64,000 nucleotides of DNA from Allocoleopsis franciscana PCC 7113 (GCF_000317515.1 NC_019738.1:3064001-3128000); one strand, 5' to 3'. Shown: positions 6,447 to 46,223, numbered from the stretch's first letter. Notes: generated from the letters alone by a model not told the origin. A program made the numbers and translations.

Positions 6447-6992
6447 ATGAAAAAAGTAGCGGTCTTTGGCAATACTGGAGGCGGTAAATCAACTCTAAGC
6501 AAGAGATTATCCCAAATCACTGGTTTGCCACTTCACGTCTTGGACAAGATTCAATATCAATCAGGAGGTCGTGAGGTTCCTCATGAAGACTATAAGCGTG
6601 CCCATCAGCAAATTTTAGGGACTGACCGATGGATTATTGACGGCTTTGGTTGCATGGAAACCCTCTGGCTACGACTGAACGAGGCGGATAGTCTGGTTTT
6701 TGTCGATCTACCGCTATATGTGCATTTCTGGTGGGTAACTAAACGACTCATCACAGGAGGCTTTTCTCCGCCAGAAGGCTGGCCGCAAAAGAGTCCAATC
6801 TTGAAAAGTTCGCTTACTAGCTACCGCGTGCTTTGGTTATGTCACAAACATTTGACCCCAAAATATCGTGAATATATCGAGCAGGCTCAAAGCATCAAAA
6901 GTGTTTATCACATTCGCTCGACTCAGCAGATTTCGCAATTTTTTGAATTAATTGAAAATGAGACTAACTTTAAAGAGGGGCAACAAAATTAG
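6447..6992 (+). CDS. P-loop kinase-like protein (topology modulation/FlaR-like)
   Basis: The N-terminus is KKVAVFGNTGGGKSTLSKRL, a Walker A P-loop at about residues 8-17. LHVLDKI follows, and a WIIDGFG motif near residue 70 is the usual second signature of this adenylate-kinase-like group often named topology modulation or FlaR-like. An LVFVDLP strand follows, then a helical lid with WVTKRL. The product is a soluble nucleotide-binding protein of 181 residues. Its substrate is unknown and the historical name says little about function. The ATG at 6447 is preferred over GTG at 6441 because the P-loop strand then starts as usual at residue 2. Its 3' end overlaps the convergent glycosyltransferase gene by 23 bp. 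Confidence 0.8.
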   Translation: MKKVAVFGNTGGGKSTLSKRLSQITGLPLHVLDKIQYQSGGREVPHEDYKRAHQQILGTDRWIIDGFGCMETLWLRLNEADSLVFVDLPLYVHFWWVTKRLITGGFSPPEGWPQKSPILKSSLTSYRVLWLCHKHLTPKYREYIEQAQSIKSVYHIRSTQQISQFFELIENETNFKEGQQN

Positions 6993-8550
6993 GTTTTGGT
7001 GTCACTAAAGTAAAGCCTTCTGCCGTACCCAAAGAAACACTATCGGGTAAGGATAACGCGGCTAATGTGGCGCTATCTAATAAAAGGTAAGGTTGCTTTG
7101 ACCATACTCGTTGCAAAGTAGCGGTATCAGCGGGAATGACTTGGCGATCGCTATAAAAATTTAAACTGGGACGCCCATACCCAAACGACGTATAAACCAC
7201 TTGAGTAGGATTAGTTTTCTCTCGAATTAAAGCTGCCACTGGTTTAACGGGAAAAGCTTCGTTTAATTCCCAAACCCAGGATTTAGATGTCATTAACAGC
7301 CCCAAAATTAAATACATTCCCAGGAATAACATGAGCATAAATCTTGGATTATTCTGTTGAATGAACCAAGCCACTACTCCCATTGTCAGGGCTACAACAC
7401 CACCCATAAGGATTAAGACAGGCTGAGGGTCTGCCAAGATAAAGTAAACGCATCCTGCCAAGCCTGCAACTGCCAAAAATCCAAACATTACGATTAAAAA
7501 TCGAGGATAGCGCTGATGATTTTGCCAAAACTCAGCGAGTTGAGCGGCAACAGCAAGAGCAAAAAAGGGATACACCGGCATGATATACCAGGGAAGCTTG
7601 GTATTCATTACAGAAATTATGAGCAAATAACCAATCGTGCCGATGAGAACCAAACAGCCCCAACTGCTCCGGCGTTTTTGCCAAGCCAGATACAAACCCC
7701 CAGGCCAAAATATCATCCAAGGCCAAGTATATTTGAGTAACTCTAGGAAGTAATACCAAGGTGCGCCCCCATGATTTTCAACAGTTTGAGACAGGCGTTC
7801 TAAACCTTGAGACTGAAAATGCACTTGTAAAAAGCTGGTTCCGTAATGTTGCCATTGGGCTATATACCAGGCGAATGCTGGCGCATTTCCTAATAATAAT
7901 CCAAGCCAAAGATAGGGACTTGTTAATAGATTAAACTGCCGATCTACCAGGAGAAATGCTCCTGCGATCGCGCCAAGAGGTACCACTAATAAGCCTTTGG
8001 TTAAACCAATCAGTCCTACACCCAATCCCACCCCGACAGCCCAACGTCGATCTTGACGGGATTTGAGCAGGCAAAATAGCAGCAATAAGAAGAAAGAAAC
8101 GGCTGTACCATCGAGCATTGCCAAACGTCCGTGACGCACAACAGGCAAGAGGGTTAAGTAAACACTGGCAGCCAAAACGGCTGGTAAACGTTGACGAAAA
8201 AGTTCTTGCCCTACCCCATAAAGTAGAGGTACGCCGCACGCTGAAAAGAAAGCACCGGGTAGGCGTGTGGTGAATTCATGAACGCCCCCCATACTGTAGC
8301 TTAATGCGATCGCCCAATCCATCAAAGGCGGTTTCAGGAGGTAGGATTTTCCCTGAAGCGTGGGATAAAGCCAGTTACCAGTGCGGTAAATTTCTCTAGC
8401 AACTAAAGCACGAGTTCCCTCATCCCAATCTCGTAAAGGTACGTTTCCTAGAGAAATTCCCCAAAGCACGAGGGCGGCTATAAAAAAGAATAAGAACCAC
8501 TGGGCTTGGGTGAGCGAGTGATTCGAGATTACCGATAATTTTTTCATCAA
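6970..8550 (-). CDS. ArnT/PMT-like membrane glycosyltransferase (GT39/GT83 type)
   Basis: The 526-residue protein has about eleven to twelve hydrophobic segments. The first periplasmic loop carries LRDWDEGTRALVARE (about residues 39-53), the acidic motif of lipid-phosphate-dependent mannosyl- and aminoarabinose transferases. YLLKPPLMDW near residue 70 is also typical. A soluble C-terminal region after about residue 430 contains SFGYGRPSLNFYSDR. Such enzymes transfer a sugar from a polyprenyl-phosphate donor to a lipid or protein on the outer face of the membrane. The acceptor cannot be inferred. The gene is transcribed alone on the minus strand and converges with the P-loop gene, the 3' ends overlapping by 23 bp. 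Confidence 0.82.
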   Translation of the reverse strand: MMKKLSVISNHSLTQAQWFLFFFIAALVLWGISLGNVPLRDWDEGTRALVAREIYRTGNWLYPTLQGKSYLLKPPLMDWAIALSYSMGGVHEFTTRLPGAFFSACGVPLLYGVGQELFRQRLPAVLAASVYLTLLPVVRHGRLAMLDGTAVSFFLLLLFCLLKSRQDRRWAVGVGLGVGLIGLTKGLLVVPLGAIAGAFLLVDRQFNLLTSPYLWLGLLLGNAPAFAWYIAQWQHYGTSFLQVHFQSQGLERLSQTVENHGGAPWYYFLELLKYTWPWMIFWPGGLYLAWQKRRSSWGCLVLIGTIGYLLIISVMNTKLPWYIMPVYPFFALAVAAQLAEFWQNHQRYPRFLIVMFGFLAVAGLAGCVYFILADPQPVLILMGGVVALTMGVVAWFIQQNNPRFMLMLFLGMYLILGLLMTSKSWVWELNEAFPVKPVAALIREKTNPTQVVYTSFGYGRPSLNFYSDRQVIPADTATLQRVWSKQPYLLLDSATLAALSLPDSVSLGTAEGFTLVTPKPNFVAPL

Positions 8551-8573: not shown

Positions 8574-10415
8574 TTAAAAGCGCTGTTCTTGATTCGGTAT
8601 TGATGGAGAAAGCGGTAAAACCTTAGTCTTCTGAAACTGGCAACGTTGGAGATAAATTTGAGCGACGGTATCGTATGGATTCATGGTCAATACGGCTTCA
8701 AACATTTTGGCGGCTTCACTGAAAGACCGCTTATAGTAGAGCCATAAACCGCTTTCAAAAACTTTAAGCGTCGCTAATTTCCCCTGTCTTATTGTCGGTT
8801 CGTCTCCATCAAAAGCTTCAAAAACAGCAACGGCTTTTGATTTTCCCTTAACTTTAACTTGCTCAATAAAGCGAATACTATACTCGCCTGGGTGATTTAA
8901 ACGCGCAAAAGTATGATGCGTAATTAACAGTGATACGCCATATTCTTTCGTCAAACTTTCCAGGCGGGAAGCTAAGTTAACTGAATCACTAATCACCGTA
9001 CTATCCATGCGGTGTTCTCCCCCAACTGTACCGAGCATTAAAGGGCCCGTATTGATGCCAATCCCAATCCGCAGTGGCGTATAATTTGATTGAGCGCGGT
9101 GTTGGTTATATTCCGTGAGGCGATGCAACATGGAAATTCCGGCTTTGAGGGCGTCATCCGCATCGCCGCTAAACAGTGCCATAATTCCATCCCCCATATA
9201 TTTATCAATAAACCCCTGATTCTCGATGATGGCGGGTTCCATGCGAGAAAGATAGGCATTAATTAATTTAAAAATATTTTGGGGAGTCATGGTTTCAGCG
9301 AGGGTGGTGAAGTCGCGAATATCTGCAAACAGCACCGACATTTCCTGATGGACTTGGTCGCCTAATTGCACATCAGCAATACTTTGTTTGTTTAAACATT
9401 GCAGAAATTGACGGGGGACAAAGCGGGAGAATGCTTGGTTAAGTTGAAAGAGTTCTTTGGTAAACTGAAGCCGATCGACTTCGGCTTTCTTTCGTTCCGT
9501 AATATCTTCCACAAATCCCTGATAATAGAGTAATGAACTATTAAAATCGAAGACAGCACGAGCATTTTCATTAATCCAAATGATGCTCCCATCTTTGCGA
9601 TAAACCTGAGACTCAAACTCAGATACTGCTCCATACTGCTGCATTAAGGTGAGAAACTCAACTCGATGGTGCGGATCGACATAAAGTTGATGGTTGATGT
9701 CGGTAATGGTTGTCATCAACTCTTCAGGAGATTCGTAACCATATAATTGCGCCGTGGCCTGATTTGCACTCAAGAAACGTCCATCAGGAGTAATTTGAAA
9801 GATACCTTCCAGGGCATTTTCAAATATTTGACGATACTTTTGTTCGGCTTTCAACAAACGACTCTCTTTTTGGTGAAGTTGGTCAATCAGCATAGACTGC
9901 TCACGGTTAAATTTTGCCAACGTCTGATTCATTTCTTGAAGTTGGATATTCATGTGAGCCAGCGATTGATTCATTTCCTGGAGCTGGGCGTTCTGTTGTG
10001 CTAGTTTTTTATCCTGAGAATAGCTGTTAACCGCTTCTTTTACAGTTAAACAAAGGTCATCTGTCTGCCAGGGTTTGGCAATATAGCGATATAATTTTGC
10101 ATCTTTGATGGCATTTCCAATCGCTTCCAAATCTGCTTGACCGGTCAGCATGATTTTGAGAGTTTTAGGTAAGATAAGGTGGACACGCTTTAATAGCTCA
10201 TCCCCTTTCATTTTGGGCATTAGATGGTCAGAAATAATGACAGGGAATTCATAACCATCCGCTACTAATTCTGCAATTAACTCTAATGCCTCCTCTCCAC
10301 CTTCTGCAATTTCAATTAGGTAATCATCGCCGATCGCCTCTTGAAGCTCTGTTCTGAGGCTTCTGAGTACCGTTGTCTCATCATCGACACAGATAATTAC
10401 CTGTTTAGTCGTCAT
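8574..10415 (-). CDS. response regulator with PAS and class III adenylate cyclase domains
   Basis: The domain order is receiver (residues 1-125, phospho-acceptor D63 in IISDHLMP, KPW at its end), a Gln-rich coiled coil (about 130-205), PAS (about 205-330, ending QGFVEDITERKKAE), class III cyclase (about 365-535), and a short TPR-like tail. In the cyclase domain VLFADIRDFTTL supplies the first metal aspartate, FIDKYMGDGIMALF the second and the adenine-selecting lysine, and STVISDSVNLASRLE the second specificity position. The product is probably cAMP. The start is the ATG at 10415, which overlaps the stop of the upstream regulator gene (ATGA); an alternative start 51 bp upstream would bury it in that gene. 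It is last in an overlapping three-gene operon with a giant sensor kinase. Confidence 0.9.
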   Translation of the reverse strand: MTTKQVIICVDDETTVLRSLRTELQEAIGDDYLIEIAEGGEEALELIAELVADGYEFPVIISDHLMPKMKGDELLKRVHLILPKTLKIMLTGQADLEAIGNAIKDAKLYRYIAKPWQTDDLCLTVKEAVNSYSQDKKLAQQNAQLQEMNQSLAHMNIQLQEMNQTLAKFNREQSMLIDQLHQKESRLLKAEQKYRQIFENALEGIFQITPDGRFLSANQATAQLYGYESPEELMTTITDINHQLYVDPHHRVEFLTLMQQYGAVSEFESQVYRKDGSIIWINENARAVFDFNSSLLYYQGFVEDITERKKAEVDRLQFTKELFQLNQAFSRFVPRQFLQCLNKQSIADVQLGDQVHQEMSVLFADIRDFTTLAETMTPQNIFKLINAYLSRMEPAIIENQGFIDKYMGDGIMALFSGDADDALKAGISMLHRLTEYNQHRAQSNYTPLRIGIGINTGPLMLGTVGGEHRMDSTVISDSVNLASRLESLTKEYGVSLLITHHTFARLNHPGEYSIRFIEQVKVKGKSKAVAVFEAFDGDEPTIRQGKLATLKVFESGLWLYYKRSFSEAAKMFEAVLTMNPYDTVAQIYLQRCQFQKTKVLPLSPSIPNQEQRF

Positions 10416-10807
10416 AGTTGGGCTAAGCCAGATTTGATCGTTTCTACTAATTCTTCTTCTGACCAAGGTTTAAACAAGCAGCTATGGAGATTAGCCTCCT
10501 CTTGTGCCCGTTTAATGGATACTTCATCAGCTTGACCCGTTAGCATGATGGTAATAATTTTGGGAAATCTCTGATGAACACGAATGAGAAATTCATCACC
10601 ATTCATACCGGGCATTAACCAATCGGAAACAATCAAAATAATGCTGAGTTCATCTTCATTGAGTTCATTAATTACATCCAGCGCTTCATCAGCATCTTCC
10701 GCAACTTCATAGAGGTAAGAATCCCCAAAAGCTTCTTGAAGTTGTGCCCTCAGGCTCTGCAAAACCACTCTCTCATCATCAACGCACAGAATTACGGGTT
10801 TAGCCAT
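10412..10807 (-). CDS. single-domain response regulator
   Basis: This 131-residue CheY-like receiver has the acidic pair D10-D11 in CVDDER, phospho-acceptor D62 in IVSDWLMPGMNG, a TGQAD motif near residue 92, and lysine in LFKPW near 115. There is no output domain. It overlaps the giant kinase stop by 8 bp and the cyclase start by ATGA, so the three genes are almost certainly co-translated. Its sequence closely resembles the receiver of the next gene, including CVDDE, SLR.QLQEA.GD.YL and LTGQAD. The two receivers are therefore probably duplicates serving the same kinase, possibly as sink and output. Confidence 0.9.
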   Translation of the reverse strand: MAKPVILCVDDERVVLQSLRAQLQEAFGDSYLYEVAEDADEALDVINELNEDELSIILIVSDWLMPGMNGDEFLIRVHQRFPKIITIMLTGQADEVSIKRAQEEANLHSCLFKPWSEEELVETIKSGLAQL

Positions 10808-13800
10808 TCGCTGCCTCCTGGATTGGATGAATCGGTAGAAACACCTTGAAGGTCGTGCAGCCCGGTTCGCTTTCTACCATAATTTTACCGTCATGCTTTT
10901 CAATAATTTTCTTGACGATATCAAGTCCCAAACCACTACCCTCTCCTGCGGGTTTTGTTGTAAAAAAAGGTTCAAATATTTTCGCTTGAATTTCTTCGGG
11001 TATTCCTTTTCCGGTATCGCCAATACTAATTTTAGCTTGCTGCTCATCCACCATGACACTAAGGGTTAAAATGCCTTGATAATCCATGGCTTGTAAGGCA
11101 TTATGAATCAGGTTTGTCCAAACCTGATTGAGTTCATCAGGATAACATAACATCGTCGGTAAGTTGCCATAATTACGTACCACCTCAACCCCCTTCTTTA
11201 ACTGATTATGATAGAGGGTTAGGACAGTTTCAATCCCTTCAGTCAGATTGGCTGGAGTCATTTCACCCGTCTGATCATAACGAGCATAGGTTTTTAGAGC
11301 AAACACAACTTTGGAAGCCCGTTCTGTGGCTGTATTAATGGTCATTGTGCCTCGTTTTAATTCTGACAGTTTATAAGCGAGGGCTAAGATTTGCGAACTA
11401 TCAGGTTTTCTTAACAGGGGTAAAAACGGCTCAATGTCTTGAGAAATCCCCATAATAACGAGGCGATCAGCAATTACATCGGCGTTTTCAATGGCTGCCT
11501 CTTCGAGTTGTCGTCTTAAAGCTCTTTTGAATTGTCGCTCTTCTTTGGTTGAGAACGTTGATTCTTGTTGAAGTGAGCGTTGGAGTAAGGTTAAGAAATC
11601 TTGCCCTTCCTCTGGGGTGAGGGATTGAAATAGGGTAGGTAATTGTTCTAGGGTTTGACCTAAGAACTTATAAATATTTCCTGCGGAAGAGCGAATAGCT
11701 CCTAAAGGCGTATTAATTTCATGGGCAATGCCAGCCACTAATTGTCCAAGCGCCGCCATTTTTTCTGACTCGATTAATTGTTGCTGGGTGGTTTTTAATT
11801 GTTCTAAAGCAGCAGCTAATTCTTGATTTTTTGCCTCAATTTCTTGATTCATCTGTAAGGCGACATTCTTGGCTTCTCGTTCTTGAGCCAGACGCAGGCG
11901 ATCGGCTTCTGCTTGCTTGCGATCGCTAATATCTTGCATGGTGGCGATCGCGTAAATAATATTGCCTTGTTCATCAAAAACAGGAGTTGTTTCTACCTCT
12001 AAAGGAATAACCGTTTCGCCTCGACGAATCTCCAGATCATCAAGGGTTACCCGTTCACCTTTTAAGGCACGCACAATCGGCAGGCGATCGGTAGGATAGA
12101 GTTGGTCAGTTCCCGCACGATAAACTTGATAAATGTTTGTTAATTGCTCGGCGGTAGCTTCTTTAACAACACATTTGCCCAATAATTGTTGCCCTGTCTG
12201 ATTAGTGTAATAGAGTTTTCCTGTGGCATCGTGAACAGCTACGCCTACTGGCATGGCTTCTAAAAATTGAGCGAGCCTTTTTTCACTTTCTCCTAATTCT
12301 TTTTCTCGTTCGACTACTTCTGCATAGAGTTTGGCATTTTTAATTGAAATGGCGGCTTGAGAGGATAAAAGGTTTAAGACTTCCAATCGCTTGGGCGTAA
12401 AGGCTCCCGGAGTGAGATTATTTTCCAGGTAAAGAATACCAATTAATTTACCTTGATTTTTAATCGGACTACACAATACGGATTTAGGTTTTTGCTGAAT
12501 AATATAAGGGTCAGCCGCAAAATGTTGAGGGACAGTAGCATCATGAATCACCAGAATTTCTTGCGTGCGCCAGACATAATTAATTAGGGAAACGGGAATG
12601 TCCTGAGAACCAAAAACGGGAATCGATTGTAGATTACAAACTTGACCAATCACGGTTTGAGCCGCGATCGCTAATGAATCTCCTTCTAGTAAAATCAGTG
12701 TTCCTTTTTCGGCTCCTGCATTTTCCATCACCACTTGCATCAAGGTTGAGAGCAACTGTTCGATCTGAATTTCCCCAGATAGAGTTTGAGAAGCTTTCAT
12801 GACAGTTGCCAAGTCCAGAACGTCTGAACCTCCTCTACTGGTAGATGTAATGGTTCCCGTGGTTAGCTGAGTAATGGTATCGTCTACCTGACAGTTTATT
12901 TTCTGGTTAAGAAGGGAAGCCAGTAATTGAGGATAACGCTGTTCTAAATCCTCAACTTTAGCTTTTGCTCCCCAACGAGCATAGGCATAGTAAGCATTCG
13001 TCAGGTAAGTTTGAGCAATAATATTTTTGCCCCAGGCGAGGTAAAATTTAGCCGCCAATTCGTAAGCTAAAGCTTCTTCTTGGATATATTCATTTTCGTT
13101 GGCTCCTTGAATGGCCTTATCGTAACAATCCATGGCCTCAATCCATTGACCCAAAACCCGATGCCGTTCTGCTTCTACTAAATAAAATTTATGCAAATAA
13201 TTCATTGGAGCATGGTCAGCCCATTTCTGCATTTTTTCCTGATTTGTGGTTACCTTCTCCAAAAGACTCTGTTGTTCAGTTTGAGGAGAATCAGGAAACA
13301 CAGCCAATCGAGTTAAAGAATCATAAAAATAAAATAAAGGAATCAGTAAAGTCGCGGTTGCACCATCTAAATACTGCTCTGCAAGTATGGCCGTTTCAAT
13401 GGCTAAGCGGGAATTATCAAACAGACAGCATAGTCTGAGTTTATTGACGGACAGGTTACAAATTGCATAGCGATCATTCGCTTGTTGGTGAATCGGCAAC
13501 ATTGTCTCTTCATTATAGGATTCACCCATTAAACGACATGGATCTTCAGCCTTTTTTATTAAGTTGAGAACGGCCTGTCGATAGATTTTATTGTAATTGA
13601 GATAAGTTTCTTGCTTGAGTTGAGCTAATACCTCACTGTAAGCTGCCATCTCTGGTTCAAGGCTCGCTAGCTGCTTGCCAGCAAAAGATGAATGAAAGGA
13701 GTATAGATAAGCACAATTGCTAGCAAATTCTAAATCTCCAGTTTCCAGCCCATTCGAGTAAGCGGCTCGAAACGCCGGCAAGGATTCCCTAACATGCTCT

Positions 13801-16800
13801 TTCCAAATCCCTACCGTTGCATGAAAGACGGTCAATATCTTAGTCTTGAGTTCTTTAGCTTGAAGTTTATCTAAAAGCCTTAAAGCCAGTTGACCAAATT
13901 GATAGCCTGTCTCAATATCTCCTACTATTCCACAGAGAATGAGTCCGTAATTAACATAGGCAAAAGCCGATAAAGAGGTATTGCCATATTGAGCTGATAA
14001 GATGACTTGTTTAAATACAATCAAAGGCATTAATTCGGGGACGGCAATAAAGGAGGCAGAAAATATACTGGAGAGGAGACGCATGGCTGCAAACGTGGTT
14101 GGATCAGTCATTTTTGGCAAGTCAATTAAGTCAGAAATTTGTTGGGATGCCAAATTTGATGTGATTTCTTCTAGTCCGCACTGAATATCTAACTGGCTTG
14201 GCTTCTGAGGAAATTCCACCCCCAATAATTTGAGAACTTGTAGGGCGATATTGACGGCTTCCAAAATCTTGTTTTGCGCGATATTGGCTTGGATATTAAC
14301 TTCATAAGTTTTCACCTTATCCACCAGCGTCGTAGCAGAGTTTCGCACTATCTCCGCAAGTCTTTCCATCTCCTCAAAATCACCACTCAGGTATGCCGCC
14401 TCCGCTGCTTCATTATGCAAGGCTAAGGTTAGTTCATACTGACGTTGCCACCCTTGAGCCTCTAATAATTCCATGCCTACGTTTAAATACCGAATAGCCG
14501 CTGCATACGCGGTGGAAGCTTTTGCTTTATGTCCAGCAGTTAGATTTAACTGAGCAAGTTGATCACGTTCTGTGCGCTCATCAATTAACCCTACCCCTCT
14601 ATTCAACTGGTTGACAATATCAAAATACTTCTCTTCCCAATTCTCTACAGTAGGGGCGCTACCTCCGTGTTTGCCCTTACTGAACAACAATCGCCCAATT
14701 TTAAGGTGAGTTGATGGCTTGTCTTGTTCAGGAATCAAAAAATAAGCCGCTTGCTGCACTCGGTCATGCAAAAATCGATAAGAAACAAATAACTCTTGAG
14801 ACTGGGCAACTTTAATTGATTCGGTATCTTGAAAAAATTTGTAGACTTCAGTAATTGGAATAATCAGCCCTTCTTGCAATGCCCTCCACAAGTCAGCTGC
14901 CGTTTCAGTTTGAGATTTTTCATGTACAGTTGCCAGGGTTGCTAAATCAAATTGGTTGCCAATACAGGCGGCTAGTTGCAAGACCCTTTGGGTATTAATG
15001 GGCAGTTTTTGCAACTGAAGTGCCATAAATTCGACTACATCATCTGTCAAGACAAGAGTTCTTACTTGGGCAATATCGCATTGCCACCCTCCTGTACTTC
15101 CCTCAAGAACTAAGCTATTTTCTCCCCCCTTACTAAGGGAGGTTGGGGGATTAAATGTGATGAGTCCATCTTCATGCAGGGACTTTAAGAATTGATTAGT
15201 AAAAAAAGGATTTCCTTTGGTTTTGGTAAGAACCAATTCTGCCAAAGGAGCGGCTCGTTCTAAGGAACACGAAAGGGTATCAGCAATCAATCGATTGAGA
15301 GAAGGTTGGTCTAAAGGCGCTAAAGTAATTTGATTGACTGTCGCATCCGCTTCGCGAATTTCATCTAATGTCAACATCAGGGGATGTGCAGCAGAGACTT
15401 CGTTATCTCGATACGCTCCAATCAGTAACAAATAGCCAGTATCTGCCTCGCTCATTAGCAATTGCATCAGTTTCAAAGAAGCCGAGTCAGCCCACTGCAA
15501 ATCATCCAGGAAAATCACTAGAGGATGTTTTTGGGTGGCGAACACTCGAATAAACTTTCTAAATAAAAGATTGAAGCGTTTTCGAGCCGCACTCCCCTCT
15601 AATTCTGGCACTTTTGGTTGCTTGCCAATTAACAGTTCTAATTCTGGAATTACCTCAACAATGACCTGACCATTTTCACCCAAGGCATCCAAGATTTTAG
15701 CTTTCCATGTATCCACCTCAGTAGTACTTTCGGTTAGCAGTTGCCGCATCAAATTTTGCAAGGCTTGCACCCAAGCTGAAAAGGGAATATCCCGCTTGAA
15801 TTGGTCAAATTTTCCTTTGATGAAGTAGCCTCGTTGGCGCACAATAGGTTTTTGGACTTCATTCACGACAGCCGTTTTCCCAATACCCGAAAAGCCTGCC
15901 ACTAACATCAGTTCGATTTGGGATTTTTGCACCTTCAAACTTTGTTCGGTGGTAGGGTTTTGGATGTTAAATTGGGAAGACAAAGGAGAGATTAATCCGA
16001 AAATTTCGTTAGACATTTCTCCCTTGCCACTGACCCGATCAAAGGCGGCTAACAGCGTGGCAACTTCGGCTTCTCGACCGTAAAGTTTTTCGGGAATCGC
16101 AAAGCGATCGCAGATATCCTTTTCGCCTAATCGAAAAGTTTGAATACTGCAATTTTCTGAATATCTTTGCAAACAGGTTTCCAAGTCCGCTCGCAATCCA
16201 AACGCACTCTGATAGCGTTCTTCCGCCGTTTTTGCCATCAACTTCATCACGATATCATTCACCTCCTGAGGTATAGAGGAAATTAGTTCGATGGGCGGAG
16301 TTGGAATTTTGGCAATATGGCAGTGAACTAACTCAATGGGGTCGCTCGCTTGAAAAGGCAGTTGTCCGGTTAGCAGTTCGTAGAAGGTAACACCCAATGA
16401 GTAAAAATCCGTGCGGTAGTCGATTCCTCGATTCATCCTTCCGGTTTGTTCCGGAGACATATAAGCAAGGGTTCCTTCTAGAACATTGGGGTTTTGAATT
16501 TCTTGACTTTCTCTAGGCAGTAAAGAGGCAATACTAAAATCAATCAGTTTTATTTGGTTATTATCTGGATGAATTAAAATGTTATCTGGCTTTATATCTT
16601 TATGGATAATTCGATGGTGGATTAATCCTTCTAAGGTTTGGACAATCTGAATCGCAATGTTGAGAAATTCTTTGAGAGAATCAGCATTCCTTCCCATACC
16701 CTCTGTATTTCCCATCTTCTGCTTGAGGGAAACGCAGCCATAGTCTTCCATGACTAAGGCATAACCATTGCGGTAGTTTTCCAGAGCTAAGGGTTTTACA

Positions 16801-17009
16801 ATCCCAGATAAATCAAGGTTTTTAGCAATAGTGTACTGATTGCGAAACTGTACCAATTCCTTGAACGTAGGATATTCACTTAACAGCAATTTCAGCACGA
16901 CCGGTTTTTGGTCATGAGATCGCACCCCTCGATAAACCTGGGTTCTAGAGCCGGAATAGATTTTGTCAAGAATGCGATATCCGGTCAGTGTGACAAAATT
17001 GTTGCTCAT
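10800..17009 (-). CDS. giant Ser/Thr kinase-ATPase-GAF-PAS-histidine kinase
   Basis: This 2069-residue multidomain sensor begins with a eukaryotic-type Ser/Thr kinase (about 10-280): K40 in VVLKLL, D138 in HKDIKPDN, and D157 in LIDFS. An AAA-type STAND ATPase follows, with Walker A GFSGIGKT near residue 375 and a VIFLDDLQWADSAS Walker B. A long helical TPR-like region runs to about 1370, then GAF (about 1390-1560, ending SQAAISIKNAKLYAEV) and PAS (about 1575-1700, ending DISDRKQAEADR). The C-terminus is a histidine kinase with H1763 in GIAHEINTPLG, an N-box LIHNALQAMDY and GSGLGLDIVKK. Proteins of this build are frequent in filamentous cyanobacteria, and most are uncharacterised. It is first in an operon with two receiver proteins, the likely phosphate acceptors. 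No transmembrane segment is evident. The ATG at 17009 gives a normal kinase N-terminus. Confidence 0.93.
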   Translation of the reverse strand: MSNNFVTLTGYRILDKIYSGSRTQVYRGVRSHDQKPVVLKLLLSEYPTFKELVQFRNQYTIAKNLDLSGIVKPLALENYRNGYALVMEDYGCVSLKQKMGNTEGMGRNADSLKEFLNIAIQIVQTLEGLIHHRIIHKDIKPDNILIHPDNNQIKLIDFSIASLLPRESQEIQNPNVLEGTLAYMSPEQTGRMNRGIDYRTDFYSLGVTFYELLTGQLPFQASDPIELVHCHIAKIPTPPIELISSIPQEVNDIVMKLMAKTAEERYQSAFGLRADLETCLQRYSENCSIQTFRLGEKDICDRFAIPEKLYGREAEVATLLAAFDRVSGKGEMSNEIFGLISPLSSQFNIQNPTTEQSLKVQKSQIELMLVAGFSGIGKTAVVNEVQKPIVRQRGYFIKGKFDQFKRDIPFSAWVQALQNLMRQLLTESTTEVDTWKAKILDALGENGQVIVEVIPELELLIGKQPKVPELEGSAARKRFNLLFRKFIRVFATQKHPLVIFLDDLQWADSASLKLMQLLMSEADTGYLLLIGAYRDNEVSAAHPLMLTLDEIREADATVNQITLAPLDQPSLNRLIADTLSCSLERAAPLAELVLTKTKGNPFFTNQFLKSLHEDGLITFNPPTSLSKGGENSLVLEGSTGGWQCDIAQVRTLVLTDDVVEFMALQLQKLPINTQRVLQLAACIGNQFDLATLATVHEKSQTETAADLWRALQEGLIIPITEVYKFFQDTESIKVAQSQELFVSYRFLHDRVQQAAYFLIPEQDKPSTHLKIGRLLFSKGKHGGSAPTVENWEEKYFDIVNQLNRGVGLIDERTERDQLAQLNLTAGHKAKASTAYAAAIRYLNVGMELLEAQGWQRQYELTLALHNEAAEAAYLSGDFEEMERLAEIVRNSATTLVDKVKTYEVNIQANIAQNKILEAVNIALQVLKLLGVEFPQKPSQLDIQCGLEEITSNLASQQISDLIDLPKMTDPTTFAAMRLLSSIFSASFIAVPELMPLIVFKQVILSAQYGNTSLSAFAYVNYGLILCGIVGDIETGYQFGQLALRLLDKLQAKELKTKILTVFHATVGIWKEHVRESLPAFRAAYSNGLETGDLEFASNCAYLYSFHSSFAGKQLASLEPEMAAYSEVLAQLKQETYLNYNKIYRQAVLNLIKKAEDPCRLMGESYNEETMLPIHQQANDRYAICNLSVNKLRLCCLFDNSRLAIETAILAEQYLDGATATLLIPLFYFYDSLTRLAVFPDSPQTEQQSLLEKVTTNQEKMQKWADHAPMNYLHKFYLVEAERHRVLGQWIEAMDCYDKAIQGANENEYIQEEALAYELAAKFYLAWGKNIIAQTYLTNAYYAYARWGAKAKVEDLEQRYPQLLASLLNQKINCQVDDTITQLTTGTITSTSRGGSDVLDLATVMKASQTLSGEIQIEQLLSTLMQVVMENAGAEKGTLILLEGDSLAIAAQTVIGQVCNLQSIPVFGSQDIPVSLINYVWRTQEILVIHDATVPQHFAADPYIIQQKPKSVLCSPIKNQGKLIGILYLENNLTPGAFTPKRLEVLNLLSSQAAISIKNAKLYAEVVEREKELGESEKRLAQFLEAMPVGVAVHDATGKLYYTNQTGQQLLGKCVVKEATAEQLTNIYQVYRAGTDQLYPTDRLPIVRALKGERVTLDDLEIRRGETVIPLEVETTPVFDEQGNIIYAIATMQDISDRKQAEADRLRLAQEREAKNVALQMNQEIEAKNQELAAALEQLKTTQQQLIESEKMAALGQLVAGIAHEINTPLGAIRSSAGNIYKFLGQTLEQLPTLFQSLTPEEGQDFLTLLQRSLQQESTFSTKEERQFKRALRRQLEEAAIENADVIADRLVIMGISQDIEPFLPLLRKPDSSQILALAYKLSELKRGTMTINTATERASKVVFALKTYARYDQTGEMTPANLTEGIETVLTLYHNQLKKGVEVVRNYGNLPTMLCYPDELNQVWTNLIHNALQAMDYQGILTLSVMVDEQQAKISIGDTGKGIPEEIQAKIFEPFFTTKPAGEGSGLGLDIVKKIIEKHDGKIMVESEPGCTTFKVFLPIHPIQEAANG

Positions 17010-23431: not shown

Positions 23432-26400
23432 ATGACGATCGCACCCATTGCCAAAGACTCTGCTGACGTTTTTGGGTACACAACGGCATTTGAGGAAGCG
23501 CTAAAAGAAATTGGGCAGATTTCACCGCAAGAATTTGCGAGACGATATACCAGCAAGGCTAAATATCTGCCTCAAATCAGCTTCGACCCAACAACTGCCG
23601 AGTTCTGGGACGATTTTCATAAGAAAGAAAAGTTTCGACTTAATGCAGAAGAACTGGCAATCTTTAAGAAAAACGGCTTCGTAGTTAGCGAACGGCTGGG
23701 AGGGCAGAATTTTGCCGATCTATTCTATCGTATCTACAGCCACGATCTGCCAGTGTTCGTTTCTGCCGATGCGCTGCTTCATGCTTGGCATCGTTCCTAC
23801 GATGCGATTCTCGAAGAACTAGAAGAGACTTACCTGTCTAGTTCGCTCTCTGAGATTCTTGAAGGTATGCAAAAGGGGATTCCTGATACTTGGAACCAGT
23901 ATGGCAGCGGGGTGCTGAGTGAGAGCGTGAAGGATGCTGACTACTTCCTTGCTGTAGCGCGTTCTCTGCTTGCAGATAAGACTCTCAAGACTTACTTAAA
24001 ACAGGATGCCCGCGTAGCCGAAACACTCGAAGCAATAAAAGGTCAGAAACTTCAAGAATTTGAGCTGTTTGGACGCGAGCGCAAGGTGGATTTTTCTCAA
24101 TTTAAAGTGTGCGGACATTATGAGAACTCCGAACTCCTGAAGCGATACTTCCGTGCCATGATGTGGTGCGGTAGAATTGACCTCCGCATTGCTGGTTCAT
24201 TGGACGAATCCTCACCGCGAGAACTCGGCGCAGCTGTAATTCTCTACGATCTCCTGAAACAATCCGGCAAATTTGAACAATGGCAGAAATTCGACCAATT
24301 GCTTCAGACCTTTGTGGGTCGAACTGATTCTATGACCTTTGCCCAACTGGGTGACATTTTAGACAAGGCTAAGATTAAATCCCCAACAGATGTCAAGAAT
24401 TGGGGAGTGCTATTGCAACTGGAAGCTGACATTTTGGCAAGTAAAATCGGCGTTCAGCACATTCGCAGTCACTCCTACGTTTCCCCATTTGGACTGGAAA
24501 AGATTAAACTGCCGAGATCGTTCACTATCCTGGGTCAAAAGTTTGTGGTAGATAGCTGGGTCACATCTAAAGTTGTATTCGACGATATAGAGTGGGATGG
24601 ACAGAAAGTACAGCGTCGTGTTCCTACCTGTCTAGATGTCGCTTTTGCTGCTTTAGGGAATGACCAGGTGGTGCCAGAACTCGTGGCACGCATGACTGAC
24701 AAAGCAGGACGACCGTTCAGAGATGGATTCAACTATCAGCACAACTTAGCAGCAGTTAAGAGTGTAATTGATGAGCAAAATCCAGCCGTCTGGGAAGAGA
24801 ACATTTATATGAGCTGGCTTGCTACCTTGCGCGAACTCTCTGCACCCACTACAGACCGCAAGTATCCTGAAGCCATGAGTACCCGTGGATGGGCAATGAA
24901 GACACTTAATACGCAATTGGCTTCGTGGACACAATTGCGTCACGACACAATCCTTTATGTCAAACAGTCCTACACCTCTAGTATCTCTTGTTACTACCCA
25001 GCGGGTTTCGTGGAACCAAAGGTCGAATTCTGGAAGCGCTTTGAGAAAATGGCGTTGCTAGCTGCTGATCTGATAGAGAAAATTCCTTTCTCAGAGCGTT
25101 TAGTTAAGGCATCTGACGGATGGGGCAATAAAATAAAGTTTCCACTCCAATACGTACAGGAAAGACAAACTACGTTCTTCAAAAACTTCGCCGAGAAGTT
25201 ATCTATCCTCAAAGGGATTGCGGTGAAGCAAGTTGCACAGGAGAAATTCACTGAAGCGGAAACCGAATTTTTGAGGAAGATTGTCGAGATAATCGGTCAC
25301 GGGTCCATGCAACCAACATACAGCGGTTGGTATTTTGGTCTTTTCTATAAGGGTCATGAGGATTCTAAAAAACAGGATGCAATTGTTGCCGATGTACACA
25401 CAAATGTGCCTGCACCAGGAGATCCAGGCTGTGTGCTTCACCAGGGTGTGGGTAATGTCGATCTGCTGATGATTGCCGTGGACAATGGTGAGAACAAGAT
25501 GGTCTATGCAGGCCCCGTTCTGAGTCACTATGAGTTTGAGATGCCAGGAGTCTCACGCCTATCAGATTCTGAATGGCTCAATAATCTTAAAATTGCTAAG
25601 GTTCCACCCCGACCGAACTGGACGAACAGCTATCTTGCACCTAAAGAAATTTTTCAGCTCACCAATCAAACAAGCCTAAACCTTGCTGGTAAGCAACTAA
25701 CGGAGCTTCCAAAAGAAATCGGCAATCTTACCGATCTGACATGGCTATACCTCAACCGTAATCAACTAGCGACGCTGCCACCGGAAATCGGTAATCTCAT
25801 TAATCTGAGAGTGCTATCCCTTGAGAATAATAGACTGACAAAGCTACCAAAAGAAATTGGCAATCTCTCCCATTTGAGAGGACTATACCTTAGTGGGAAC
25901 TATCAACTGAAGGTGCTGCCAAAAAAAATCAGTAATCTCACCAATTTAACACAGCTAAACCTCAGCTCTAATCAACTGAAGGTGCTGCCGAAAGAAATCG
26001 GCAATCTCACCAATTTAACACAGCTAAACCTCAGCTCTAATCAACTGAAGGTGCTGCCAAAAGAAATCGGCAATCTCACCAACTTGACGCTGTTAGACCT
26101 CAACGGCAATCAACTGACGGAACTGCCACCGGAAATCGGCAATCTTACCAATCTGGAAGTGCTATACCTCAGCCGCAATCAACTGACAGCCTTGCCAAAA
26201 GAAATCGGCAATCTCACTAATTTGACCGAGCTAGACCTCAGTGAAAACGAAAATGTGCTGCCAGCAGAAATTGGCAATCTTACTAATCTAAGAAGGCTAT
26301 ACCTCAATCGCAAGCAACTGACAGTGCTGGTACCGGAAATTGGGAATCTTACCAATCTGAAAACGCTATCCCTAAAAGATAATCAACTGATAGCGCTACC

Positions 26401-26812
26401 CCCTGAAATTGGCAAGCTTACTCAGCTAAAATGGTTAGATATAAACAAAAATCAACTGAGGCAACTGCCACCCGAAATTGGGAATCTTACTAATCTGACA
26501 GAGCTATACCTCTACGACAACCAACTGACAGCGCTGCCAAAGGAAATTGGCAACCTCACCAATTTGACAAAGCTCCACCTTTACAAAAATAAACTGATGG
26601 CGCTGCCCCCCGAAATGGGAAGACTAACCAACCTGATAGAGCTATACCTCGACTACAATCAACTGACAGCGCTACCACCGGAAATTGGTAATCTCACCAA
26701 TCTGACACAGCTAAGTTTCTACAATAACCAACTGATTTCACCGTCGCCTGAGATTGTCAAGCAAGGAACGCAGGCAATTTTGGCATATCTTCGAGAGCAA
26801 TTAGTAGGATAG
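23432..26812 (+). CDS. DUF3160 protein fused to a C-terminal leucine-rich-repeat domain
   Basis: Residues 1 to about 745 form a large domain matching, as recognised by eye, the DUF3160 family. It includes VFVSADALLHAWHRSYDAIL, a YVSPFGLEKIKLPRSF-type block and GAVLSHYEF-like ends (here AGPVLSHYEFEMPG). Its function is unknown. Residues about 755-1115 are sixteen leucine-rich repeats of 23 residues, consensus L..L.L..NQLT.LP.EIGNLTN, as in ROCO/Shoc2-like bacterial LRRs. One repeat carries an extra residue and one is shortened. LRRs normally mediate protein binding. No signal peptide or membrane segment is seen. AAGGAGA before the ATG supports the start. The LRR part varies little at the DNA level between units, suggesting recent expansion. 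Confidence 0.85.
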   Translation: MTIAPIAKDSADVFGYTTAFEEALKEIGQISPQEFARRYTSKAKYLPQISFDPTTAEFWDDFHKKEKFRLNAEELAIFKKNGFVVSERLGGQNFADLFYRIYSHDLPVFVSADALLHAWHRSYDAILEELEETYLSSSLSEILEGMQKGIPDTWNQYGSGVLSESVKDADYFLAVARSLLADKTLKTYLKQDARVAETLEAIKGQKLQEFELFGRERKVDFSQFKVCGHYENSELLKRYFRAMMWCGRIDLRIAGSLDESSPRELGAAVILYDLLKQSGKFEQWQKFDQLLQTFVGRTDSMTFAQLGDILDKAKIKSPTDVKNWGVLLQLEADILASKIGVQHIRSHSYVSPFGLEKIKLPRSFTILGQKFVVDSWVTSKVVFDDIEWDGQKVQRRVPTCLDVAFAALGNDQVVPELVARMTDKAGRPFRDGFNYQHNLAAVKSVIDEQNPAVWEENIYMSWLATLRELSAPTTDRKYPEAMSTRGWAMKTLNTQLASWTQLRHDTILYVKQSYTSSISCYYPAGFVEPKVEFWKRFEKMALLAADLIEKIPFSERLVKASDGWGNKIKFPLQYVQERQTTFFKNFAEKLSILKGIAVKQVAQEKFTEAETEFLRKIVEIIGHGSMQPTYSGWYFGLFYKGHEDSKKQDAIVADVHTNVPAPGDPGCVLHQGVGNVDLLMIAVDNGENKMVYAGPVLSHYEFEMPGVSRLSDSEWLNNLKIAKVPPRPNWTNSYLAPKEIFQLTNQTSLNLAGKQLTELPKEIGNLTDLTWLYLNRNQLATLPPEIGNLINLRVLSLENNRLTKLPKEIGNLSHLRGLYLSGNYQLKVLPKKISNLTNLTQLNLSSNQLKVLPKEIGNLTNLTQLNLSSNQLKVLPKEIGNLTNLTLLDLNGNQLTELPPEIGNLTNLEVLYLSRNQLTALPKEIGNLTNLTELDLSENENVLPAEIGNLTNLRRLYLNRKQLTVLVPEIGNLTNLKTLSLKDNQLIALPPEIGKLTQLKWLDINKNQLRQLPPEIGNLTNLTELYLYDNQLTALPKEIGNLTNLTKLHLYKNKLMALPPEMGRLTNLIELYLDYNQLTALPPEIGNLTNLTQLSFYNNQLISPSPEIVKQGTQAILAYLREQLVG
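25942..26079 (+). repeat. near-identical 69-bp tandem duplication within the LRR region
   Basis: Two consecutive 69-base units starting CAATTTAACACAGCTAAACC at 25942 and 26011 differ at only a few positions and encode the same repeat peptide (LTQLNLSSNQLKVLPKEI...). The wider region about 25690-26760 is periodic at 69 bp. Confidence 0.8.
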
Positions 26813-44621: not shown

Positions 44622-44765
44622 TTCGGAGTGGTTTGGTAATCGGTAATGGGTCATCGGTAATGGGTCATCAATCACTTTGGCTAGACATAATTGGCTAGCA
44701 GGAATCACGACAATCCACTCGCCAATTTCCAATTCCCAGACATTTCCCAAACAATTCAAAACTCT

Positions 44766-46223
44766 ATGAAGCTGCATGTCTTCCACTCAATTCGCAGACA
44801 GATTATGGCTGCCACCACTTTTTTAATTTTGGTGATTGTCACGGCTGTAGTGTGGAGTTGGGCTAAAAACGAGAGCGAGGTCTACCGATTTTCAGAGCGT
44901 CAGGGAGCTCAAACTCTGGCTGTCTCCCTATCCAACGCTTGGACAAACGAATTAGTAGACCAGAATTGGAGTCAAATTCGCCTCGGACTCAATCTGATGC
45001 TGAGACGAAATCCGGAGTTTATCTATATCTTAGTTTCAGACACTCGATTGTCGAACCAGATTGTTGCCGCAGCACCCGATGATTTCATGGAGCAGTATAT
45101 TCCTGACATCGTGCCCGTGGAAGATACAAAGTCGGCTTGGAAAGTTTATGATGGAACCCGCTTAGTCGAACCCTACCTTCTACGAAATGTTGAGTTTCCT
45201 AAAGGAGAAATGCGGGCGCGTCGCGGCGAACAAGTGATAGAAGTCGCCTCAGATATTCGTAACGCGACTGGGGAAAGAATTGGGACTCTCCGAATTGGCA
45301 TATCCCTGCGGCAAGTGAACCGCGCCGTGAGGGAGGCGATTAACAAAGCCCTCATGGTTGGGGCGATGGGATGGGCATTTGGTTTGGCAGGTGCCTACAT
45401 CCTGGCACGGCAGTTAAGTCACCCAGTGCAACGTTTACAAATTAGTGCGACGAAGATTGCGGCTGGGGATTTGCAGCATCGTGCCGATATCAACCGTGCT
45501 GACGAACTGGGAGCGTTGGCAGAGGCTTTTAATGACATGGCGACTGCCCTACAAAAATCCTTTAATCGACTTCAGAAAACACTTGAATCTTTTGAGCGCT
45601 TTGTACCAGAGAAATTTCTCAAGGTTATTGCCTCTGACGGGATTGAGAATATCCAGGTGGGTGTGGCTTCGACTCGCAAGATTACGATTTTGTTTGCCGA
45701 TATTCGCGGCTACACCTCAATGTCGGAACAGATGACGCCCTTAGAAACCTTTGCGCTCTTAAATGAGTACTTAGCCCTGATGGGGCAAGTGATTAACGAT
45801 GCAGGAGGTTTTATTGATAAGTATATCGGTGATGCAATAATGGCTCTTTTTGAAGATGAGACAACAGGTTCTGCCTTGAGGGCGGCAGTCGCGATGCAGC
45901 AGGTACTGGAAGCCTTTAATGAACAACGCCTCCCTCAAAAACAACCCACGATCAAAATTGGCATTGGTATTCACCGAGGCGAAGTCGTACTAGGCACTAT
46001 CGGCTTTACATCCCGGATTGAGTCTACAGTCATTGGAGATGCTGTGAATGTGGCAGCACGAGTCGAGGGTCTAACCCGGAAATATGACTGTTGTATATTA
46101 GTGACCGAGTCAGTGGTCGTGGCGCTTCAGCATCCAGAGGTATTCAATCTACGATTAGTCGATGACTCTGTTAAGGTCAAAGGCAAGAATGAGCCTGTGG
46201 CGATTTATGAGCTAGTCGTTTGA
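44766..46223 (+). CDS. membrane adenylate cyclase with HAMP domain
   Basis: The ATG at 44766 gives 485 residues; a longer frame would need TTG. The order is transmembrane helix (about 12-36), extracytoplasmic sensor region (about 37-190), second transmembrane helix (about 190-212), HAMP (about 213-270, with HPVQRLQISATKIAAGDL), then class III cyclase (about 300-480). Catalytic residues include the metal aspartates in ILFADIRGYTSM and FIDKYIGDAIMALF (the K of which selects adenine), and STVIGDAVNVAARVE. The product is probably cAMP. It follows a lipoprotein with a molybdopterin-like double domain that could act as its periplasmic partner (inference). It is the second class III cyclase in the window. 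Confidence 0.9.
   Translation: MKLHVFHSIRRQIMAATTFLILVIVTAVVWSWAKNESEVYRFSERQGAQTLAVSLSNAWTNELVDQNWSQIRLGLNLMLRRNPEFIYILVSDTRLSNQIVAAAPDDFMEQYIPDIVPVEDTKSAWKVYDGTRLVEPYLLRNVEFPKGEMRARRGEQVIEVASDIRNATGERIGTLRIGISLRQVNRAVREAINKALMVGAMGWAFGLAGAYILARQLSHPVQRLQISATKIAAGDLQHRADINRADELGALAEAFNDMATALQKSFNRLQKTLESFERFVPEKFLKVIASDGIENIQVGVASTRKITILFADIRGYTSMSEQMTPLETFALLNEYLALMGQVINDAGGFIDKYIGDAIMALFEDETTGSALRAAVAMQQVLEAFNEQRLPQKQPTIKIGIGIHRGEVVLGTIGFTSRIESTVIGDAVNVAARVEGLTRKYDCCILVTESVVVALQHPEVFNLRLVDDSVKVKGKNEPVAIYELVV

Follow-up and report, generated by a model that had tools for sequence, protein, structure and literature searches.

A conserved kinase-receiver-receiver cassette

Three overlapping genes in a 64,000-nucleotide stretch of the Allocoleopsis franciscana PCC 7113 genome (NC_019738.1:3064001-3128000, hereafter the window) probably represent a two-component cassette that is conserved and occurs in many copies, in which a soluble histidine kinase, belonging to a distinct subfamily, is combined with a lone receiver (REC1) and with a second receiver joined to an effector (REC2-X). 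The genes occupy positions 8574-17009, are all co-directional on the minus strand, as are the features given below for them, and follow one another in the order gene 1, gene 2, gene 3. Gene 1 (10800-17009) encodes a 2069-residue HstK-type Ser/Thr-His dual kinase with the architecture Ser/Thr kinase (STK)-AAA_16-TPR-like-GAF-PAS-histidine kinase. Gene 2 (10412-10807) encodes REC1, a receiver of 131 residues with D62, T90, K113 and an invariant SDWLMP, and gene 3 (8574-10415) encodes REC2 followed by a PAS domain and a class III cyclase, 613 residues in all when counted from the ATG. Genes 1 and 2 overlap by 8 bp, and genes 2 and 3 overlap by ATGA, taking the ATG as the start of gene 3; in the mechanical list of open reading frames (ORFs), gene 3 has an upstream TTG start and 630 residues. 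An earlier note on this DNA had described both overlaps and the kinase, receiver, PAS and cyclase domains, and the ORF coordinates and Pfam matches bear it out. The window version of the cassette has its kinase fused to an STK-AAA-TPR-GAF-PAS input, with a PAS-class IIIb cyclase as X. What deserves attention here is less the dual kinase than the cassette of kinase, REC1 and REC2.

It is evident that the three-gene arrangement is not a matter of chance, because it is identical in a genome of the same genus (locus L087) and because dozens of loci have REC1 with REC2-X after it; conservation of the gene order had been proposed as a check in the earlier note. Four kinase-REC1-REC2-X sets are present in the PCC 7113 genome, in which the kinases of this subtype number exactly four. 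Against a profile of the subtype, 76 genes score at least 400 bits and the next group scores about 250-270 bits, a few fragments excepted. Of 59 relatives, 29 carry the kinase subtype and 28 carry REC1; both are present in 28 genomes, the kinase alone in 1, REC1 alone in 0 and neither in 30. In relatives, REC1 genes nearly always adjoin REC2-X and a kinase. REC1 lies directly downstream of 55 of the 76 subtype kinases, and a subtype kinase lies directly upstream of 54 of 62 REC1 genes. The gap between kinase and REC1 is shorter than 300 bp in 49 of 57 cases, and that between REC1 and REC2 is -4 bp in 21 of 54 and -8 bp in 6 of 54. Across the phylum the distribution of REC1 is patchy, because only 16 of the 244 genomes in a phylum-wide draw have it. 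Outside Cyanobacteria, kinase, REC1 and REC2 occur together in Thiotrichaceae (e.g., L055, L056 and L059), Leptospirales (L064) and metagenome-assembled genomes of Bacteroidota (L065 and L073), with a different gene order in the Leptospirales and Bacteroidota sets.

Kinase, REC1 and REC2 have correlated distance matrices (r = 0.71, 0.79 and 0.83), and the observed correlations were reached in none of 2000 within-genome partner shuffles (0/2000). These results indicate that the three parts co-diverge beyond the genome background. The partial correlations are 0.50 between kinase and REC1, 0.63 between kinase and REC2, and 0.17 between REC1 and REC2. Statistically, each receiver is more strongly correlated with the kinase than with the other receiver, as would be expected if both receivers are partners of the kinase. 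As far as can be read from the sequences, the cassette is an old, co-evolving three-part switch that occurs in several bacterial phyla. No earlier description of it was found in the searchable literature, from which subscription journals are largely missing, and its novelty is not established. Beggiatoaceae and Cyanobacteria are reported to have exchanged signalling genes (MacGregor 2016, PMC5108060), and in the accessible part of that paper the receiver exchange concerns hybrid kinases.

The two receivers

Gene 2 has a Pfam match to Response_reg alone. REC2 comprises residues 7-125 of gene 3 (10041-10397; Pfam and motifs) and has D63, T91 and K114. The residues of a functional receiver are present in all 63 REC1s and 54 REC2s compared: the acidic pair, the phosphoacceptor Asp and the Lys are kept in every sequence, and the Thr/Ser position is Thr throughout except for one REC1 with Ser.

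The two receivers of the window had been thought to look like recent duplicates, and this view does not hold. A search of its own genome with the window REC1 found four lone receivers, each beside a receiver-effector. The window REC1 shares 62-70% identity with the other lone receivers of the genome, 44-52% with the receivers of cassette effectors and 52% with its neighbour REC2. Among 45 trios, the mean identity of REC1 with its own REC2 is 48%, compared with 63% among REC1s and 65% among REC2s, and for the REC1 of every trio there is a closer REC1 than its own REC2. In the receiver tree, a single group (support 99/95), apart from the REC2s, contains 73 REC1s of Cyanobacteria, Thiotrichaceae and Leptospirales, and REC1 and REC2 are jointly separated from other receivers (support 100/99); the two Bacteroidota REC1s have no firm placement, and the resolution of deeper forks is limited by the small number of columns and the length of the branches. 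The identities and the tree rule out a recent duplication, and REC1 and REC2 are separate, old lineages, whose duplication, if any, would be older than the cassettes. There was no sign of a mobile element, and a search of plasmids matched only distant Leptospira receivers.

A helical insertion in the cassette kinases

The Pfam matches of gene 1 are Pkinase, AAA_16, GAF, PAS, HisKA and HATPase_c, among which HisKA, at 26.8 bits, is just below the cut-off of 26.9. In the DHp domain, helix 1 (11652-11834; motif and structure model) carries the phospho-accepting H1763 within ALGQLVAGIAHEINTPLGAI, and helix 2 comprises residues 1871-1910 (11280-11399; structure model). The HATPase_c catalytic domain (residues 1957-2060; 10830-11141; Pfam and motifs) has the N-box NLIHNALQAM, DTGKGIP and GSGLGL. 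Every predicted catalytic residue is kept in the histidine kinase of gene 1 and in both receivers.

Between DHp helices 1 and 2 lies a helical insertion of about 84 residues (1787-1870; 11400-11651; compact all-helix model). The cassette-adjacent kinases have in common the H-box ALGQL[VI]AG[VI]AHEINTPLGAI and a spacing of 202-205 residues from H-box to N-box; in canonical histidine kinases this spacing is about 105-120. About five helices are placed between helix 1 and helix 2 in an AlphaFold model (mean predicted local distance difference test score, pLDDT, 80; predicted template modelling score, pTM, 0.54), and the insertion modelled alone is a compact helical domain (pLDDT 86, pTM 0.75). 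It is not a histidine phosphotransfer (HPt) domain, as His occurs in at most 5 of 53 sequences at any column of the insertion. With this model, Foldseek found nothing in the PDB at E <= 0.001 and VIA-align reached no Z above 3.4, and a profile search of PDB sequences with the insertion gave chance-level matches only; these negatives are not proof of a new fold. The Foldseek matches of the whole kinase are ordinary histidine kinases.

The insertion occupies the place at which a receiver is docked to the DHp domain in complexes such as HK853-RR468. When receiver divergence was regressed on four kinase regions, REC1 divergence was found to follow the insertion (0.33-0.38), whereas REC2 divergence does not (0.09) and follows the kinase catalytic domain. 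The insertion effect for REC1 minus that for REC2 is 0.28 [0.16, 0.39] in 63 trios, and 0.30 [0.03, 0.52] in 19 previously unused trios, where it is not significant alone with Kimura distances. The insertion is not exclusive to REC1-linked kinases. Sister kinases with a cyclic nucleotide (cNMP)-binding domain and an HELNNPAAA-type H-box (L179, L180 and L182) have a homologous long DHp insertion, with about 206-211 residues from H-box to N-box; unlike the cassette kinase, they have no REC1 nearby, another H-box and another partner, a receiver-thioredoxin reductase. The insertion therefore did not arise for REC1, and the comparison shows that it predates the REC1 partnership. In L179, L180 and L182, the sister kinases are arranged in tandem and adjoin the receiver-thioredoxin reductase fusion, with which they could possibly form a cyclic nucleotide/redox two-component system.

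We consider it a speculative and rather unlikely idea that the insertion is a docking or control platform, at which the kinase dimer would hold REC1 while phosphorylating REC2, so as to make a receiver-controlled kinase conserved across several phyla. REC1 docking at the insertion may be taken as a lead only, because the sister kinases carry the insertion without REC1 and it was thus not made for REC1.

The Ser/Thr kinase input and the cyclase output

The input part of gene 1 consists of a Ser/Thr kinase domain (residues 11-267; 16209-16979) with the motifs VVLK, HKDIKPDN, DFS and SPE, an AAA_16 ATPase (residues 360-530; 15420-15932) with Walker A GFSGIGKT at 372 and a Walker B-like FLDD, both assigned by Pfam and motifs, and a GAF domain (residues 1416-1556; 12342-12764) and a PAS domain (residues 1578-1699; 11913-12278), both assigned by Pfam. 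Both kinase activities are predicted by these and the above motifs. Dual kinases are a described class, cbSTKIII or HstK, as the accessible part of a published survey recounts for the HstK Alr2258 and for Pkn40/41 of Anabaena (PMC2176072). Gene 1 has the features of this class, namely a Ser/Thr kinase at the N terminus, at least one GAF domain, here in the middle, and a histidine kinase at the C terminus, all within a single cytoplasmic protein; in the same part of the survey, the REC1-REC2 cassette is not mentioned.

The PCC 7113 genome has about 12 STK-AAA-TPR-GAF giants, the majority of which end in an ordinary histidine kinase. Only about 1 of 12 giants, that of the window, is fused to the cassette-type kinase with the long insertion and the link to REC1; at locus L084, another such giant adjoins a cassette. 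In two giants of this genome the same input is fused straight to a cyclase closely related to that of gene 3 (57-63% identical). The wiring from input to cyclic AMP (cAMP) thus recurs. At L151 (G000:C1:4702500-4715000), two neighbouring STK-AAA-TPR-GAF giants are fused to a cyclase domain, bypassing histidine kinase and receiver. The Ser/Thr kinase half is found in only 15 of 56 cassettes with an assigned adjacent kinase, and it is an optional HstK-type input of known type. With these counts, and with one of about 12 giants having this histidine kinase, the dual kinase is not the essence of the system that the earlier note took it to be; its proposal of signal integration ending in cAMP fares better and is plausible from residues, linkage and co-divergence.

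Gene 3 has Pfam matches to Response_reg, PAS and Guanylate_cyc, the last above the cut-off. Its PAS domain comprises residues 190-312 (9480-9848; Pfam), and its class III nucleotide cyclase domain lies at 8829-9356 (Pfam and motifs). The cyclase domain has the metal-binding D365 and D409, the adenine-specifying K405 and T473, the latter read as the second purine-specifying residue from an alignment to CyaB, and the transition-state N480 and R484. Lys plus Thr is the pattern of class IIIb adenylyl cyclases, and it is plausible that gene 3 encodes a class IIIb adenylyl cyclase, predicted to convert ATP to cAMP. Among 61 REC2-X proteins, X is a cyclase in 29, a histidine kinase in about 28, GGDEF plus EAL in 2 and SpoIIE in 2.

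In the adenylyl cyclase CyaC, receivers and histidine kinase are inside the cyclase polypeptide, whereas the parts in the window are three proteins from separate genes, with an extra lone receiver; gene 3 is thus not a CyaC-type cyclase. Like gene 3, CyaC of Anabaena and Spirulina is an adenylyl cyclase proposed to be activated through histidine-kinase phosphorylation, with AphC as upstream kinase (PMC4284465).

A PMT-type glycosyltransferase gene (6970-8550, minus strand) begins 24 bp past the end of the cyclase gene and may be co-transcribed with it; in L087, a 518-residue ORF lies downstream of the cassette with the same spacing. Elsewhere in the window, another class III cyclase, with a HAMP domain, is encoded at 44691-46223, and a DUF3160 protein with leucine-rich repeats in a C-terminal run at 23432-26812, both on the plus strand.

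Proposed mechanism and alternatives

The sequences show which domains are present, that their catalytic residues are intact, that the genes are linked, and that the three parts are inherited together and co-diverge; from this we infer phosphotransfer to both receivers, the direction of the cyclase effect and a tuning role of REC1. In the most likely scheme, both receivers obtain phosphate from one kinase. Synthesis of cAMP would be under the control of REC2 and would be adjusted by REC1, acting as a competitor, a sink or a feedback arm. The input would alter autophosphorylation of gene 1 at H1763, and phosphate would pass from the kinase to D63 of REC2, with changed cyclase output, and to D62 of REC1. 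By competing for or draining phosphate, or by feeding back on the same kinase, REC1 would set the gain and duration of the cAMP signal. A sink or competitor role is compatible, by analogy, with one kinase and two intact receivers. In the phosphate sink of Sinorhizobium, CheY1 with CheA and CheY2, there is one kinase and a lone receiver competes with another receiver. Both that system and the single-domain hub MrrA (PMC5964349) resemble the cassette in having a lone receiver that competes with or steers another receiver; unlike theirs, the cassette kinase is of a different class and not of chemotaxis, and the role of REC1 is predicted.

Several observations weigh against one kinase serving both receivers for cAMP. 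Seven of the retrieved loci, Pseudanabaena loci among them, have a kinase followed by REC2 with no REC1 between, and 16 REC1s with downstream sequence left have no REC2 at the expected place, although in some REC2 is nearby elsewhere. Neither receiver is therefore strictly required in place, and the loci without REC1 suggest that REC1 may be accessory. L051 and L103 are a single contig present in two collections, with the order kinase-REC1-kinase-REC2-cyclase; since each receiver follows its own kinase gene, the receivers need not share one kinase, and this shows that they can also be wired separately. The 8-Mb genome is rich in nucleotide cyclases, with 44 domain matches, and gene 3 may be one of many contributors to cAMP. 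The separate kinases of L051/L103 and the Pseudanabaena loci could also mean that the receivers serve different kinases, one adjacent and the other in trans, either way, with linkage reflecting shared ancestry and co-expression only. This is improbable, as the within-genome permutation shows that each receiver goes with the kinase next to it more closely than with the paralogous kinases that its genome also contains.

A CheY-like independent output or feedback on the kinase fits REC1 as well. REC1 could diffuse to a target of its own and leave the cyclase to REC2, which would make two parallel outputs of the kinase; we regard this as possible, with perhaps one chance in a few. The W adjoining the phosphoacceptor is invariant in 63 of 63 REC1s and the position is variable in REC2, which suggests that the REC1 surface is constrained for something specific; REC1 also occurs without REC2 at the expected place, and its sink role is an analogy. 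On the other hand, the low REC1-REC2 and strong receiver-kinase partial correlations point to the kinase as the main constraint, and no separate conserved target gene of REC1 was seen adjoining the cassettes. It is very unlikely that regulation truly comes from the Ser/Thr kinase half, with a histidine kinase-receiver part that is vestigial or minor. The STK motifs are intact, and sibling giants are fused directly to the cyclases that they drive, with no histidine kinase, but kinase and receivers have kept their catalytic residues family-wide and the majority of cassettes are without any STK.

What was described as an overlapping relay at one locus becomes a signalling unit that is defined and co-evolving and in which both ends can be exchanged: the input is either a Ser/Thr kinase giant or an ordinary sensor, and the output is cAMP, a second kinase, cyclic di-GMP enzymes or a SpoIIE phosphatase. 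For the way in which one kinase handles two receivers, the DHp insertion offers a specific candidate. Because natural variants with and without REC1 exist, comparison of cassettes can test what a lone receiver does next to a kinase.

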